Shown here in pieces: positions 1 through 5,979 of a stretch of DNA of 64,000 bases. The position numbers and the translations under genes were made by a program. The stretch comes from Dyadobacter sp. CECT 9275 (lineage in GTDB: Bacteria > Bacteroidota > Bacteroidia > Cytophagales > Spirosomataceae), in NCBI RefSeq assembly GCF_907164905.1, contig NZ_CAJRAF010000002.1, forward strand, positions 3,806,001-3,870,000, in the 5' to 3' direction. Below the pieces are notes generated by a model that saw only the letters and a list, made by a program, of their open reading frames with translations, did not search any database and was not told where the DNA came from. Every line of letters begins with the position of its first letter. The first letter of the stretch is position 1.

Positions 1-747
1 CATTTTGGCTATCACACTTACCAGAAACTCAAACTGCTTGTCACGCATGCCGCCGGAGACAGCGGCGTAAGCCGTGTTTACCGGTTTGAAAAGCGTATAA
101 TGGCTTAAAGCATCGATAGGACTTTCGGCTAATACCAAAGTAGTATCTGAAGGCTCGATAGCTCCCAGCCAAAGCGCCTTTTCGCTGCCGCGCATAAAGA
201 CGCCTTTGTCGTGGTTTTTCAGTTCGAGACCGCAGATTCCCTGACCGTCCTGGTGCGGAAAAACAACATTGCCGTAATAGTCCTGAAAAATCTTCCCGCG
301 AAAGCGCTCGTTTACGAGTACTTGTGAGGGAATTTTTCGCTCGTCGGTAAGATAAGGATGGGTGATGATCGGTTTCATTCTTTGAAACGCTTTCAAAATA
401 CGCTGCCTGTCATAGACCTGTTCTTTCACATCAGGCACATTGTAGTGTGACAAAGTCTGGCCGTGGCTTTCCCATCCGGCCAGATGTTCGGCGATTTCAG
501 GCAGCGTTTTTCCGGTTCGTCTTTGGATAAAATCGACAATTGTGCCGTTGTCCTGATTATCTCGGACGGAAAAGTAAATCCAGGTATCTGCTTTTCTTGA
601 TATAATGATCTTATCACCATTGTTATGGCGCATAACCAGTGAGCTGCGGGTAGACTTTCTGCTATCCAGCTCATAACCCTGCGCTGCGGCATACTGGCCG
701 AGGTTGATGGATTCTTTGAAAAAGGCAAAGTCATTTTTATGGGTCAT
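1..747 (-). CDS. TOPRIM/DUF3991-type protein of a mobile element (partial, C-terminus off the window)
   Basis: The frame is open from ATG at 747 to the window edge (249 codons), so the C-terminus is missing. The start has a near-perfect Shine-Dalgarno sequence (CTAAGGAGG) seven bases upstream. The first ~80 residues resemble the DUF3991 lead-in (NNGDKIIISRKADTWIYFSV, then a GTIVDFIQ stretch). Around residues 205-235 there is a TOPRIM-like segment with LVLAESPIDALSH, where E and D match the acidic motif. Such proteins occur in conjugative and integrative elements with primase or relaxase functions, so a role in element DNA processing is inferred. It is the last visible gene of the minus-strand ardC-radC group and lies 10 bases after the DUF6876 gene. 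Family assignment is from memory. Confidence 0.7.
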   Translation of the reverse strand, partial: MTHKNDFAFFKESINLGQYAAAQGYELDSRKSTRSSLVMRHNNGDKIIISRKADTWIYFSVRDNQDNGTIVDFIQRRTGKTLPEIAEHLAGWESHGQTLSHYNVPDVKEQVYDRQRILKAFQRMKPIITHPYLTDERKIPSQVLVNERFRGKIFQDYYGNVVFPHQDGQGICGLELKNHDKGVFMRGSEKALWLGAIEPSDTTLVLAESPIDALSHYTLFKPVNTAYAAVSGGMRDKQFEFLVSVIAKM

Positions 748-757
748 ACTGACCTCC

Positions 758-1129
758 TTAGTATTCTGTCGGAAGCAGAAGGACACTGTCTGTCAAAAAC
801 AGTCGGATTTTAGGAAGTTTGAAATCCGTATAGCTGATATGCTCTGAATAAACGGTGTCATCGTTGCCGTTTCCGCAGGTAAGCATCGCGGTCTGATCTG
901 GGTTGACTGTAAGCTCCCAGACCTGGAAAGGTTCGATTTTAACTGCTGGCTGTTCATATTGAAGGGCGAAAATCCGGTCTATGAGCCAGTAACATTGTGC
1001 TTCGGTGGCCAGGAATTGAATACCGTCGGTATAGGTGAACTGACGAAAGAGCTGGTGTCTGTACCAGTTCACCGTTCCTGTGAAGGTTCTCAAAGTCTGT
1101 GACAGGTGGATGGCGTCTTTGTTTTCCAT
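758..1129 (-). CDS. DUF6876-like protein
   Basis: 123 residues. The start at 1129 (MENKDAIHLS) is preceded by AAGAAAGGGAAA. A longer frame reaching 1285 would run through the hairpin element and has low-complexity, unlikely sequence, so I reject that start. The protein has FTGTVNWYRH near residue 16 and a YTDGIQFLATEAQCYWLID block near residue 35, which recall the small DUF6876 family found in plasmids and integrative elements. No catalytic residues or membrane segments are evident. It sits between ardC and the TOPRIM gene. The function is unknown; an accessory or anti-defence role is only suggested by its neighbours. Confidence 0.65.
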   Translation of the reverse strand: MENKDAIHLSQTLRTFTGTVNWYRHQLFRQFTYTDGIQFLATEAQCYWLIDRIFALQYEQPAVKIEPFQVWELTVNPDQTAMLTCGNGNDDTVYSEHISYTDFKLPKIRLFLTDSVLLLPTEY

Positions 1130-1166
1130 GATATTTCCCTTTCTTTTTGTGAAGGCCTGATTGCCT

Positions 1167-1286
1167 TGTGCAGACCGTCCACGGGCTGTCTGCCAGCGGC
1201 TTTGCAAGCTGTTTTTTGTCTCGCGAGGAAGCCGCAAGGCGGGGAAAAAACCGCTTGCAAAATGCGGCAAGCCCGTAGGCTGCACA
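1167..1286. repeat. Large structured hairpin, element A
   Basis: Nested inverted repeats between ardC and the DUF6876 gene. TGTGCAG (1167-1173) pairs with 1280-1286, ACGGGCT (1181-1187) with 1270-1276, and TTTGCAAGC (1201-1209) with 1253-1261. A run of six T (1212-1217) pairs with six A (1245-1250), followed by a bulged G (1218). TCTC (1219-1222) pairs with GGGG (1241-1244) through two G-T wobbles. The apex is an unpaired GCGAGGAA (1223-1230) and a small stem GCC-GCAA-GGC with a GNRA-type loop. Element B has the same order of parts with different stem sequences. The wobbles and the GNRA loop favour folding of the plus strand. Confidence 0.7.
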
Positions 1287-1359
1287 TGGAAGGCAATCTG
1301 GACTTCACAGATCGAAAGGAAGTAAAATCAAAGACGGCAACTTCGAACAAACTTTGGAA

Positions 1360-2307
1360 TCATGTTGAATGAGCCAATACAAACTCAGCCGCCTTTTGTG
1401 CATGGGAAGCAGCAGAAAAGATAAGACGCTTGTCATCCTGCAAAGCTTTCAACCAATGCTGGATGTAGGCTGCATGTTGCTCTTGTGGAATAGGCTCAAT
1501 GCCCAGTATTGCAGAGAGATAGCAGGAGCCGATTTCGGCGACAAGTTCTTCTTTGGCGTACCCTTGGTCACCGAAATGTTTTCTGCCGAAATCCCGGTCA
1601 AGGCGTGTGGGATGCTTTGTCCAGTGGCAAATTTCATGTCCGAGCGTGGAATAAAATCCTTCGGCACTTTCAAAGCTTTCAAACGGTGGCATCTGAATGC
1701 GGTCAGTGGTTTGGTTGTATGACGCATTGGTACCGGTGTATATGTCTGCCTTGGTATTGGCAAAGAATGTTTCGAGTTCCTGATTACGTTGAGCGAGATT
1801 CAGCTCTTTTCTTTCCGGAATATTGTAATAATGCGCTGGTAAATCCTTGATTTGTGAAACGTTGAAGACCGTATAGGTTTTTAGGAAAGGAATTTTCCGG
1901 GTTTCTGATTGACCATCCTGACTTTCTTCTTCTTTGATCATATGATCGGCATAGACAATCTGGGTTCCTTTCTCGCCTTTAATCACCGAGCCTTTCAGCT
2001 CCAGGGCCTGTTTAAAGGTCATCCAGTGGGAGAGCGTGTAGTTTTTCTCACAGGCTGCCGCCCAGAGAAGGATTGTGTTGATACCGCTGTAAGGTTGGTC
2101 GTTCCAACGAAGCGGCAGCGTGACGTTTGTGGAAAGATATCCTGAACTCCAGGGTTGACGCCAAGTCAAGTTGCCTTTTTCAAGATCGGCCAGGATTTTG
2201 TTGGTAACACGGCTGTAAATGTCAGTTTGTGGCTGGGTGTCAATTTTCAGATCGTCCTCCTGGTTTTGGTTTCTGGATGTTTTCTTTTTAGGTTTTGAGG
2301 ATTTCAT
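1360..2307 (-). CDS. ardC: ArdC-type antirestriction protein with zincin domain
   Basis: 315 residues, starting at 2307 behind AAGGAG. Residues ~30-150 match the ArdC N-terminal single-stranded-DNA-binding domain (IYSRVTNKILADLEKG, then LPLRWNDQPYSGINTILLW). Residues ~190-310 match the MPTase-PolyVal metallopeptidase domain, with the zinc motif HEICH near residue 225 and an EELVAEIGS helix supplying the further ligand. Known ArdC proteins protect incoming plasmid DNA from type I restriction and bind single-stranded DNA. The lysine-rich first ~25 residues are probably disordered. It lies in a minus-strand series after radC, with hairpin elements on both sides, as expected for genes expressed early after DNA entry. 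Confidence 0.9.
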   Translation of the reverse strand: MKSSKPKKKTSRNQNQEDDLKIDTQPQTDIYSRVTNKILADLEKGNLTWRQPWSSGYLSTNVTLPLRWNDQPYSGINTILLWAAACEKNYTLSHWMTFKQALELKGSVIKGEKGTQIVYADHMIKEEESQDGQSETRKIPFLKTYTVFNVSQIKDLPAHYYNIPERKELNLAQRNQELETFFANTKADIYTGTNASYNQTTDRIQMPPFESFESAEGFYSTLGHEICHWTKHPTRLDRDFGRKHFGDQGYAKEELVAEIGSCYLSAILGIEPIPQEQHAAYIQHWLKALQDDKRLIFSAASHAQKAAEFVLAHST

Positions 2308-2348
2308 GTTTGCTTCTCCTTAGCTGTCAGGGTTACGGGGAGTTCTTC

Positions 2349-2446
2349 ATCCGGCAGGCAAGCGAGCAAACAGCAAGAATTTTGCCCCGCGAGGAAGGCC
2401 CAGAGGCCGGGGAAAATTCTTGTTAGAGCAGTGAGCGGTGCCGGAT
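2349..2446. repeat. Large structured hairpin, element B
   Basis: Lies between radC and ardC, just upstream of the ardC start. ATCCGGCA (2349-2356) pairs with 2439-2446 and CAAGAATTTT (2374-2383) pairs with 2413-2422. A G bulge (2384) follows, then CCCC (2385-2388) paired with GGGG (2409-2412). The apex holds an unpaired GCGAGGAA (2389-2396) and a GGCC-CAGA-GGCC stem-loop. The apex layout, the G bulge and the 8-base unpaired segment are the same as in element A, while most paired bases differ. This is the pattern expected of a conserved folded element rather than a recent copy. Confidence 0.7.
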
Positions 2447-2491
2447 AAACTCACCGTGCAGGCCCTGATTGCGGAGAAGCAAATACGTCCG

Positions 2492-3004
2492 TTAGCCTGG
2501 TAAAAGAGAAGGATGACGGGCACCAGTGTGATCAAGTCCCGGTATCAGGCCATTGTCCGCAAACGAATAATATCCATCTCTGGTCAGGATTAAATGATCC
2601 AGGATCGAGAGTTCAAGAAGTTTTGCGCCCTCGATAATCCGGGATGTAATGACTTTATCAGGCTCACTGGGGTGGGCTATGCCGGAAGGATGGTTATGGG
2701 CAAGGATCAGTTTGGACGCGTGGGCTTTCAACGCAGTACCAAAGATCAGCTTGGGGTCAGCAAAACAATAATTGATTCCGCCTGAACTGATGTGGGAAAT
2801 GCCCAGACAATTACATCTATTATCCAGCAGCATGATCTTGAACTGCTCTACAAGCTCTATTTTGCCGGAATCCCAGCTGCTGCGGAAAAGCTTATCGGCG
2901 ATCCGGGAGGCATCAACATGCACCCTTTCATGATAAGGAGTTTTGTTGCGGTAGGTGATTTCGATCTCAGATGCCTGGAATTGGGATTTGATTTCTTCTG
3001 TCAT
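2492..3004 (-). CDS. radC: RadC-like JAB/MPN domain protein, short form
   Basis: 170 residues. The JAB metalloprotease-fold motif HNHPSG with a following EPD (around residues 120-132) gives the HxH...D zinc site, and an FKIMLLDNRCNCLG strand precedes it. The helix-hairpin-helix domain of chromosomal RadC (~220 residues) is absent, which is normal for copies on plasmids and integrative elements. Its start at 3004 lies one base after the stop of the upstream primase-like gene (TGAAATG), so translation is probably coupled. GAAGGG lies upstream. Despite its name, the family has no established DNA-repair activity, and its role in mobile elements is unknown. Confidence 0.85.
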   Translation of the reverse strand: MTEEIKSQFQASEIEITYRNKTPYHERVHVDASRIADKLFRSSWDSGKIELVEQFKIMLLDNRCNCLGISHISSGGINYCFADPKLIFGTALKAHASKLILAHNHPSGIAHPSEPDKVITSRIIEGAKLLELSILDHLILTRDGYYSFADNGLIPGLDHTGARHPSLLPG

Positions 3005-3005
3005 T

Positions 3006-3929
3006 TCAAATTCCCTTCAAAGGCAGGTTATTTCTGTGCCATTCGCTTACATTCTTGTGTGGCGCATACATCGCGTTCATCTTGATATGCCGAAGCGCTG
3101 GTTCCGCTTTCAGCAGCTCGCTTAAAAGCATGGCTGCCTGTCGTCCGGCCTTATCATTGTCCATCCAGCTATACAGGGCCTTGTAGCTGTAATTTTTGAT
3201 GTAAGGGGCTGCAATTACGACGTTGCTGCTCTCGTGCAATATGATTGTGTCATGCTCCCATGTTTCGCGGTTAAGATGCGCAAGCACCGACAGGAAATCG
3301 AAGATATTTTTGAAAACGTGTATTTGTCTGGACTTCGGATTTGTTCCGCGAAAGAATGTAATACCACCTGGATGGATAAACCCATTAAAAAGTGGGTTAT
3401 GAAGCTGGTAACCGTCGCTTTCGTTTTTTACACCCAGGGCTATAAACGTTCTGCCGGTAGTGCGGTTAAAGACTTTCAATTCCTTCGTAAATCGCTGTGC
3501 GGTTGAGACAGGGATACCCAGGCTTTCCAGGTACCTGATCAGCCCGATGAAGCCAATTGGAGCAGCCGATTTGATGCTCAAAACTGTTTGAGCGGTTCCG
3601 CTGATTTCTTCACCAGAATTGTTGCCTGGTTGCAGTGTGCAGAACCGCTCATTGTTCAGATTGGAAATCCATCGTGTTACATCAGCGGGCGTATTTGCTT
3701 CTGCAGTGTATTTCAGATACTGAAAGGCAAAATCCCTCAAATCTCCGCCGATTGACAGGGTATAGTCATACCATGTATTCGTCTTGAAATAGACCCAGAA
3801 ACGCGGTTTTTGTTCTTTACTGATCGGGCAGCGGTATAACGCCTTTGACTTTCCCGTATAATCCGCTTTGATTTGAAGCTTGTCGAGAATTTTAGTTATG
3901 GCTATACTATCGGCATGGTCCTTGTCCAT
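3006..3929 (-). CDS. TOPRIM primase-like protein of mobile element
   Basis: 307 residues from ATG 3929, chosen because GGGAGGAG lies just upstream; an in-frame ATG at 3965 lacks this. The N-terminal part has ALYRCPISKEQKPRFWVYF followed by a WYDYTLSIGGDLRDFAFQY stretch, which resembles the CHC2 zinc-finger region of mobile-element primases with most Cys ligands lost. The C-terminal ~110 residues look like a TOPRIM fold: IHVFKNIFDFLSVL stands where the catalytic Glu normally is, and YSWMDNDKAGRQA contains the DxD-type acidic motif. The likely role is priming or helicase loading in element replication. The missing Glu (VFKN instead of EG) means activity is uncertain. Confidence 0.65.
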   Translation of the reverse strand: MDKDHADSIAITKILDKLQIKADYTGKSKALYRCPISKEQKPRFWVYFKTNTWYDYTLSIGGDLRDFAFQYLKYTAEANTPADVTRWISNLNNERFCTLQPGNNSGEEISGTAQTVLSIKSAAPIGFIGLIRYLESLGIPVSTAQRFTKELKVFNRTTGRTFIALGVKNESDGYQLHNPLFNGFIHPGGITFFRGTNPKSRQIHVFKNIFDFLSVLAHLNRETWEHDTIILHESSNVVIAAPYIKNYSYKALYSWMDNDKAGRQAAMLLSELLKAEPALRHIKMNAMYAPHKNVSEWHRNNLPLKGI

Positions 3930-3966
3930 TGCACTCCTCCCAGGAAAACGATGTGATGCGGGCACA

Positions 3967-4487: not shown

Positions 4488-4691
4488 ATGAGCGATCAGA
4501 CTCGTTTTTCGTCCGTTGGATTTTTACGTCTGCCGGAAATTTTAAAACTGATTCCCGTAAGCAAAGCAACCTGGTGGAACGGTTGCAGGTCCGGACGTTT
4601 TCCAAAACCCTATAAGCTGGCACCACGCATCACGGCATGGAAAGCCTGTGATATTTTTGACTGTATCGAAAAATTCAAATCATCGAATTGA
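4488..4691 (+). CDS. alpA: AlpA-family DNA-binding regulator
   Basis: 67 residues. FLRLPEILKLIPVSKATWW, then GRFPKPYKL and ITAWKACDIFDCIE, is the standard AlpA/Cox-like winged-HTH layout. AAGGAG precedes ATG 4488. AlpA proteins activate the neighbouring integrase or act as recombination directionality factors in P4-like islands. Here it converges on a related integrase, overlapping its 3' end by 17 bases, and that integrase is broken, so this AlpA may have lost its partner or may act on the intact copy at 26.5-27.7 kb. Confidence 0.85.
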   Translation: MSDQTRFSSVGFLRLPEILKLIPVSKATWWNGCRSGRFPKPYKLAPRITAWKACDIFDCIEKFKSSN

Positions 4692-5695
4692 TCGCCACAC
4701 CCGGAATCTGCTCAGGTTTTATCCTCTTTTGACAGCTTCTTTCCAGGAATGCACCCATTTTTTTGAAAGCATCCTGCTGTTGCCGCTTTAACTGGGCACG
4801 TTGATAGGTTTCGACAATCTTGTCTTCGATTTTTTGATTGAGACACTTTTTAACGATATACGGCATGATACCCAGTTCCTGCATCACTGTAGCCGTTGTG
4901 CGGCGTAGATCATGGATGACCCAGCGGCCATTGGGTAGGACCAAAGCCTGATCGTCCTGAACCCGGCTTTTTGCGCCCGGTTTCTTTTGCCGGTCTGTTA
5001 CTTGTTTGGTTAAAACCTGGCGGGTGGCAGGCCCGCGCTCTGACCGGCCTGGTACCAGCCAGTCAGTGGTTCTTGTCTTTTCAAGCGCTCTTAATTGTGC
5101 AACTGCAAAATTGGAAAGATACACGTCATGGCTATTTGTATTCTTGGCATGCTCAGAAGGGATGTGCAACTGCCGCTTCTCAAAATCAATGTGTTTCCAC
5201 TTCATGCGCAGAACTTCATTTACCCTGCAGCCTGTCGCCAAAAGTAACCATATCAGATGTTGGTATTCAGACCTCATGGTGGAGCGTGGTAAAATCCCGC
5301 TGAGTGTTTTTATTTCCTGATTGTTTAAAAATCGCTTGCGGGGCTTTTCTCTTCCGCCAACCCTTTCCTTGGTCAGTCTGCGTGTAGGGTCCTGGCTGAT
5401 AAGTTCTTCACTATCCGCATAACCGAAGAATTGCTTCAGGTTGGACAAAAGCCGGTTTGCCCATACTTTGGGCTTTACGCTTAAGGACGCGGTCGAGAAT
5501 GGCTTTCATGTCATTCCGTGTGATCTCGCCAATTGGCTTTCTGCCGATGAGTGGAAAGACATCCTTTTCAAATGCCCGCTCTATTTCTTTTCCCTTATCC
5601 TTTCTGTTTTGCAACTCGGCTGTCTTCCATGAGTCAAACACAGCTCTTACGGTGTTTTTTTGTTTTTCCTCTCGCTGCGTAAGATCTTTTAGCCT
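4675..5695 (-). pseudogene. int: P4-type tyrosine integrase, truncated and frameshifted
   Basis: Closely related along its length to residues ~119-420 of the intact integrase at 26478-27749 (shared ERAFEKDVFPLIG, LLATGCRVNEVLR, HDLRRTTATVMQELG). The first ~118 residues, the arm-binding domain, are absent: similarity starts at 5695, where the sequence changes to a response-regulator fragment. A single extra base in the TTT run at 5456-5458 breaks the frame. Removing it restores NRLLSNLKQFFGYAD, matching the intact copy. The gene therefore reads as two frames, 5411-5710 and 4675-5448, and cannot make a working recombinase. Confidence 0.9.
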
Positions 5696-5697
5696 AC

Positions 5698-5979
5698 ATG
5701 AGGGCTCCATATGCCGAACCTTTCCTGATACTTTCTGACATTGACCTTCCTTACATGAATGGCATCGATCTTAATTCACAGCTAAGCACCGACATTGAAA
5801 TAAGGCGGACGGGTGTCCCCTACCTTTATCTAACGAACCGGGCAACTCACGAGCTGATCATCGACGTGTACAGCAAGCTGGCACAAGGCTACATCATTAA
5901 ACCCAGTTCTCCAAAGGAGCTTATTTCGACGCTGAAAGCCATTATGGATTATTGGCAGGTATGCGCTATGCCCTCCTGA
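5698..5979 (+). pseudogene. Response-regulator receiver domain, N-terminus lost
   Basis: About 90 codons of a CheY-like receiver. The phosphoacceptor region is ILSDIDLPYMNGIDL, followed by the conserved T in YLYLTNRA and the conserved K in GYIIKPSSPKEL. The first ~45 residues, including the acidic pair of the phosphorylation site, are missing because the gene starts at the junction with the truncated integrase. The remaining frame is open, but its ATG lies in junction sequence. It is read as a remnant of a resident single-domain regulator. Confidence 0.75.

Follow-up and report, generated by a model that had tools for sequence, protein, structure and literature searches.

The window analysed here, a stretch of 64,000 nucleotides from Dyadobacter sp. 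CECT 9275, begins with a row of minus-strand genes, namely a DUF3991 gene, a DUF6876 gene, the anti-restriction gene ardC, a radC-like gene and a toprim primase-like gene (Table 1). Further neighbours recognised by Pfam in the window are an AlpA-like gene and a tyrosine recombinase. The genes of a TraD/TraG-like coupling protein and of a MobF relaxase lie left of the window and run toward the ardC genes. Judging by these neighbour genes together with the coupling protein and the relaxase, the window belongs to a mobile element that has integrated. The tyrosine recombinase is split into two overlapping ORFs in different frames of the minus strand (4675-5448 and 5411-5710), whose C- and N-terminal parts match integrase models separately, and is probably a broken integrase. 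An IS21-type istA/istB pair is found between the coupling-protein and MobF relaxase genes (L003:11000-13348, left of the window). Most of the gaps in front of the DUF6876 gene and ardC is taken up by two large inverted repeats, elements A and B.

Table 1. Genes, hairpin elements and candidate promoter letters in the part of the window around elements A and B. Offsets are counted from the GGGG of the apex.
Feature	Position	Strand	Basis or remark
DUF3991 gene, truncated by the window edge, downstream of DUF6876	1..746	-	Pfam PF13154 on 1-792
DUF6876 gene, presumed output of A	761..1129	-	Pfam PF21781, E 9.6e-43
Element A, inverted repeat	1159..1298	+	folds; occupies most of the gap; plus strand is the DUF6876 template strand
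Apex of A: bulged G, TCTC/GGGG, unpaired GCGAGGAA, GCC-GCAA-GGC	1218..1244	+	sequence, family alignment
TTG in the 3' arm of A, offset 15	1255..1257	+	candidate -33/-35 element
TA in the 3' arm of A, offset 36, spacer 18 from TTG	1276..1277	+	candidate -7 element
ardC (anti-restriction; ArdcN and zincin-like MPTase), presumed output of B	1360..2307	-	Pfam PF08401, PF18818
Element B, inverted repeat, upstream of ardC	2327..2468	+	folds; plus strand is the ardC template strand
Apex of B: bulged G, CCCC/GGGG, unpaired GCGAGGAA, GGCC-CAGA-GGCC	2384..2412	+	sequence, family alignment
TTG in the 3' arm of B, offset 12 (TTA at offset 15)	2420..2422	+	sequence
TA in the 3' arm of B, offset 38; spacer of 23 to TTG and of 20 to TTA	2446..2447	+	
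radC-like JAB-domain gene, upstream neighbour	2492..3004	-	Pfam PF04002
toprim primase-like gene	3006..3965	-	Pfam PF13155, weak: 22.9 bits, cut-off 22.1

According to the sequence-only reading of this DNA, A and B are hairpins of a shared design with a common apex. Such hairpins are indeed present, and they fold far better than 200 dinucleotide shuffles. With RNA parameters the plus strand reaches z values of -4.8 (A) and -4.7 (B), and with DNA parameters -5.1 and -4.3, none of the 200 shuffles being as good in either case. The same reading had placed both elements correctly but made them too short (1167-1286 and 2349-2446), the inverted repeats extending to 1159-1298 and 2327-2468. Regarding the short GC stem that it had drawn at the apex, the minimum-energy RNA fold of A lacks this GCC/GGC pairing, but the family alignments described below back it, the small apical stem (helix 3) being paired in 98.1% and 98.6% of their cells. 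The 8-mer GCGAGGAA by itself is ordinary, with three occurrences in the window against 2.1 expected. The structured composite pattern is found twice in the 7.2 Mb genome, both times as A and B, and a reversed control pattern is not found at all.

A covariance model, which had been proposed as a check, was built from B and four relatives without A (model R1) and recovers A at 40.1 bits (E 2.9e-8), as well as the loci L036 and L026, none of which was in its training; the 79.9 bits obtained for B are those of a training sequence. A second model (R2) comprises 73 rows (set A6), of which two are the opposite strand of other copies (L018, L049), and scores A, here a member of the training set, at 54.7 bits. 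R1 matches 31 of 222 genomes of the window's family (E <= 0.001), and R2 matches 8 of 395 Bacteroidia genomes, the window's own included. A pattern scan of genome contigs returned at least 116 stretches, 80 of which were listed, and R1 (E <= 0.01) marks 80 places in 85 loci, namely these 80 and five viral ones, the 36 further pattern-scan loci lying outside the R1 search. Rhodobacterales, Rhizobiales, Methylobacterium, Hyphomonas, Diaphorobacter and Nitrosomonas are among the pattern-scan stretches listed, together with isolated cases, e.g., from Thermogemmatispora and Zavarzinella. Other ardC/radC elements carry the apex too, and of the two results named beforehand as refuting, its absence from such elements and a lack of compensatory change in the paired columns, neither was obtained.

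Plasmids were covered through PLSDB, where single queries matched 70, 45, 100, 3, 110 and 5 records, with possible overlap; the 110 records belong to a Diaphorobacter query of Tn4371-like type. By DNA similarity, positions 1000-3100 of the window match eight PLSDB records, all in the coding part of ardC and none in the hairpins. Copies are also present in contigs filed as viral in IMG/VR (L018, L026 and L190). A first viral-contig pattern gave 18 stretches with only L018 and L026 as convincing copies, and a second scan gave seven stretches and added L190 at 30 bits. Four loci of another search, L005, L006, L008 and L009, were judged chance from their folds. A Tn4371-like element of two plasmids, a large one from Leclercia and one from Azospira (L205 and L206; 20046-20111), likewise has the motif, here before DUF736 and close to a Shedu gene.

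With a regular expression and a pairing filter, 125 distinct copies were collected, which form 67 clusters below 65% identity, and the family ranges over Bacteroidota, Alpha-, Beta- and Gammaproteobacteria and a few others. Five of the 67 clusters (L072, L126, L155, L158 and L163; one copy each) were dropped by eye as probable chance matches; they are absent from the wobble and promoter-letter counts and from those on pairing probability and start-codon distance, and present in the 125, the 67 and the loop count. L036, which comes from a Bacteroidia genome, is counted among the non-Bacteroidota clusters, and the regular expression passes over 12 of the 116 elements of sets A4 and A5, which the listings based on it lack. 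A literature search limited mainly to freely available papers found no published description of this hairpin family.

The stems had been said to differ in sequence and to stay paired, and this is borne out by compensatory change across the family. In an alignment of 36 sequences, 90.6% of cells pair, as against 76.4% in shuffled alignments and 44-56% with slid partners, and 16 of the 21 pairs are changed on both sides, a number reached by none of 500 shuffles. With 73 rows, the paired share is 93.1% (69.0% shuffled, 49-67% with slid partners); two-sided changes are seen in 18 of 21 pairs, a number that one of 500 shuffles reached. The weakest helix is YCYC/GGGG, with 72% (36 sequences) and 82% (73 rows) of cells paired. 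These percentages lean towards the model, as the alignments were fitted to it; the recovery of A without training is independent of them.

The strand that folds was chosen from the wobbles and not from fold energy, which is almost equal on the minus strand (RNA z of -4.7 for A and -3.3 for B). In the outer-stem pairs left unfixed by the search, 61 G.T cells were counted against 15 A.C cells (62 clusters), and by this excess the strand that folds is the one serving the next gene as template, so that plus-strand folding, antisense to that gene, was rightly proposed. A further count in helix P2 (74 G.T, 1 A.C) was set aside because the search pattern nearly fixes one of its sides. A strand asymmetry of this kind argues against a double-stranded regulatory or recombination site, that is, a cruciform, a protein-binding palindrome, a terminator or a transposase or integrase site. 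While large inverted repeats in the intergenic gaps of mobile elements would suit such a site, the orientation of the copies follows the next gene and, where testable, the transferred (T) strand, and there are too few copies per genome for a REP-like repeat; a double-stranded site is therefore considered highly improbable. Regarding the individual candidates, no T run is seen by eye at the hairpin base, as a terminator would have, and a REP/RAYT-type repeat was rejected with two strong and one weak match in 7.2 Mb. Integron attC sites have conserved outer boxes around variable centres. The hairpin family has a conserved centre and variable outer parts, and an attC assignment was considered and dropped.

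The apical loop bears on the nature of the folded molecule. Triloops of the form C-GNA-G cap 60 of the 125 distinct copies (33 of 67 clusters) and GNRA tetraloops cap five copies (five clusters), in a count taken on this hairpin family alone. GNA loops give extraordinarily stable DNA minihairpins (Hirao 1994, Yoshizawa 1997, cited in PMC11101458). UUCG loops, on the other hand, were the reason for Weinberg and colleagues to prefer RNA for their STAXI motif, although these authors themselves raise the possibility of single-stranded DNA (PMC2864571). Like the present family, STAXI and the radC RNA motif RF01754 are structured and lie close to radC, or to ssb and anti-restriction genes, but STAXI consists of repeated pseudoknots with UUCG loops and the A/B family of one hairpin, often with a GNA loop (PMC2864571). 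Neither motif, nor any other Rfam family, matches at gathering score: with Rfam 15, only tRNAs were found in the window and 18 loci, most of them with a copy. Up to E 10, three matches fall within 1100-2520, the one on A being freshwater-1 with 14.3 bits against 72. Covariation and wobbles on the plus strand, and the GNRA loop in A, would be accounted for by a structured RNA read from that strand, antisense to the ardC or DUF6876 leader. Such an RNA is nevertheless judged distinctly unlikely, with about half of the loops of the ultrastable DNA type, few GNRA or UNCG loops and no Rfam match, and it gives no reason for the T-strand polarity presented below. Among the three readings offered from the sequence, i.e., a structured RNA, a single-strand DNA signal used on entry and a recombination site, it is thus the second that is favoured by the wobbles, the antisense position, the T strand and the DNA-type loops, the structured RNA being weaker and the recombination site having gained no support from these results.

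The position of the copies relative to genes is regular. Taking each element as plus, the left ORF is on the minus strand in 31 of the 35 A4 copies, and the left gene is ArdC-like in 22 of the 35. In the A5 set of 60, the opposite-strand rule holds by ORFs in 37 of the 56 copies with a left ORF, many of the long ORFs in this GC-rich DNA being probably spurious. All 21 annotated plasmid stretches, with a single copy apiece, have the next gene on the opposite strand; it encodes DUF736 in 16, a single-strand binding protein (ssb) in one and a hypothetical protein in four. DUF736 genes are reported to occur on all Mesorhizobium elements compared in an earlier study, often duplicated, and by term that paper has no mention of a hairpin (PMC8627217). 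Elsewhere, a DUF2958 gene lies directly behind L039 and a SprT-like gene about 220 nt behind L051, and the nearest recognised genes behind L018 and L026 are N6/N4 and C5 DNA methylases, at about 0.4 and 0.7 kb. In a Methylocella plasmid (L214, 1-235 and 401-442), an ssb gene follows the copy directly, as it does Frpo in F. The distance to the gene is also nearly constant: an ORF start was found behind 26 of the 35 A4 copies, and in 21 of these it lies 72-78 nt from TTTTG, the distances from start codon to TTTTG calculated from coordinates being 87 nt for A and 75 nt for B.

For plasmids, the folded strand can be compared with the strand that is transferred. The nick consensus is YATCCTG^Y for the P type and TAAGTGCG^CCCT for the Q type. 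Canonical nicks were sought beside relaxase genes, and where several matches occurred, the intergenic one upstream of the relaxase was taken, the others being inside genes. Such a nick was found in eleven plasmids: of P type in Ruegeria pTHAF33_c, Paracoccus p3, Phaeobacter pP24_b and Sulfitobacter pTHAF37_a, in Rhizobium rhizoryzae, Ciceribacter and Pseudorhizobium, and in Bradyrhizobium PSBB068 and BTAi1, and of Q type in Methylobacterium pA and Methylorubrum p1METDI. In all eleven, the first copy behind the nick is on the T strand, 1.6-14 kb away, as are 26 of the 27 copies in total; by our own grouping the eleven plasmids represent four oriT lineages and not eleven independent tests. Copies are co-oriented in nine of the ten records with two or more, or in eight of ten if a weak Geminicoccaceae copy is added. 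The contrary copies are one of five in the Sulfitobacter record and this weak fourth copy (31.6 bits), which is opposite to the three others and still obeys the gene rule, its own next gene being an inverted DUF736.

Leclercia, Azospira, pMLa (unclear nick), Geminicoccaceae, pAtS4b and Methylocella stand outside the eleven-plasmid count; no canonical nick was found in the Tn4371-like element of the Leclercia record, and Geminicoccaceae and pAtS4b have variant nicks only. A second nick, of MOBQ type and opposite polarity, lies beside another relaxase in the Ciceribacter record, and none was found for the second relaxase of Pseudorhizobium; these observations cover the two records named. For the window's own element, the T-strand polarity is carried over by analogy from the alphaproteobacterial plasmids, which would make the plus strand the one that enters. 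An R388-like polarity of its MobF relaxase and coupling protein would, on our assumption, make the minus strand the transferred one.

Location on the T strand would also be expected of a single-strand initiation site, where a T-strand hairpin recruits a primase, a primosome or RNA polymerase for synthesis of the complementary strand, with the toprim gene product as a possible partner. Folded single-strand signals such as sso, ssi and PAS are known on mobile DNA. Toprim genes are named near several loci, and the paper on Frpo has promoter as well as primer functions in its title (Masai and Arai 1997, as cited). However, one priming site would suffice, and two to five copies are present in 10 of 17 plasmid records; a priming site needs no gene to template directly behind it, and such a gene is found in 21 of 21 stretches. 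The near-fixed distance to the start codon, together with TTG and TA at group-specific places, likewise speaks against priming, which is considered an unlikely though not negligible main function. Unlike sso, ssi and PAS sites, the copies described here precede genes at that near-fixed distance, a distinction made by position.

The letters TTG and TA may be those of a promoter. Published descriptions give Bacteroidota promoters a TTTG at -33 and, at -7, a TAnnTTTG that covers -12 to -5 (PMC2483708, PMC9723704). Of the 21 Bacteroidota clusters, 17 have TTG at offset 15 of the 3' arm and 20 have TA at 36-38, other three-wide windows having TA in 1.9 clusters on average and eight at most. On the sense strand of the 5' arm, TTG occurs thereabouts in 7 of 21 clusters and TA in none, or in two of 21 within a window of ten. 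The spacer between TTG and TA measures 19-20 nt in 16 of 20 clusters; elements A (18) and B (23) are exceptions, which weakens the promoter reading for them. Of TAnnTTTG, the TA is the only part with clear letters in Bacteroidota. Mean pairing probability in this group is 0.90 for TTG, which is in duplex, and 0.59 for TA, which is thus open only in part; in both A and B, the A of TA faces a C on the other arm. With TTG in duplex and TA partly open, RNA polymerase could start within the hairpin.

In the other clusters TTG is placed differently: 23 of 41 have it at offset 24-26, where three-wide windows, overlapping ones included, average 3.3, and 4 of 41 have it on the sense strand of the other arm. 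A TATAAT-like hexamer (four of six letters) at a spacing of 15-20 is found in only 1 of 28, and this near-absence is the main weakness of the promoter reading outside Bacteroidota. In many non-Bacteroidota 5' arms (e.g., L127, L138, L102), a conserved purine-rich stretch of about GGAGCGCAGCGGAGGAC is seen by eye opposite TTG, preceded by a second small hairpin that is often GNA-looped.

Taken together, A and B are probably single-stranded DNA promoters that resemble Frpo and ssi in their working and belong to a family of their own. On entry of the element into a recipient in single-stranded form, its plus strand would fold into the long imperfect hairpin, whose 5' arm, adjoining the gene, could serve as template while the 3' arm provides the missing non-template strand. 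In Bacteroidota this 3' arm would offer TTG in a paired stretch and, usually 19-20 nt further down, TA where the pairing is partly open. RNA polymerase could then start and leave the hairpin into ardC (from B) or the DUF6876 gene (from A) before second-strand synthesis. The A/T stem and the GCGRGGAA apex would cap the structure and may together serve for docking. Once the DNA is double-stranded, each arm would pair with its own complement and the promoter would be lost.

Such a role has precedent in enterobacterial plasmids. In F, Frpo forms its hairpin on the T strand, with -35 and -10 boxes restored in it, and leading genes depend on both Frpo copies to be expressed early in recipients (PMC9849209). 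Like Frpo1 and Frpo2 of F and ssi of ColIb-P9, the hairpins described here are long and imperfect with an A/T-rich upper stem and, where a canonical nick was found, nearly always located on the T strand, they stand before leading-region genes (ssb, anti-restriction) on the template strand of these, and more than one copy may be present per plasmid (PMC9849209, PMC11541004). In contrast to Frpo and ssi, the family has a conserved GCGRGGAA apex with an often GNA-capped stem, spans several phyla and has its promoter letters elsewhere, and its promoter role is a predicted one. Homology to Frpo or ssi was rejected: R1 found nothing at E <= 10 in F 40-68 kb and ColIb-P9 40-75 kb, and R2 nothing at E <= 0.05 in F 40-68 kb and ColIb-P9 40-75 and 18-40 kb. 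By term, the main text of PMC11541004 contains no Bacteroid, ArdC, RadC or hairpin.

With slightly better than even confidence, it can further be proposed that these hairpins constitute, next to Frpo, a second family of promoters in single-stranded DNA, distributed over plasmids and integrative and conjugative elements (ICEs) of Bacteroidota and Proteobacteria. Its members would share the apex, their promoter letters would suit the sigma factor of the phylum concerned, and ardC and other genes would be read from them on the entering strand. An experimentally supported model of early expression exists for F and ColIb-P9 (PMC9849209, PMC11541004), and it is the recipient, not the donor, that requires ArdC of R388 (PMC7213743).

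The 67-position covariance model marks candidate single-strand promoters in several bacterial classes, and its matches thereby flag candidate leading regions and the strand that is likely to be transferred. DUF736, DUF2958 and DUF6876, whose functions are unknown, become candidates for early-expressed proteins, and the hairpins offer a case of evolutionary covariation that seemingly acts on single-stranded DNA. In the genome of the window itself, R2 gives a third, weak match (L267, G000:C2:1042083-1042148; 33.1 bits, E 5.2e-4), surrounded by small genes which by their look resemble toxin-antitoxin genes.
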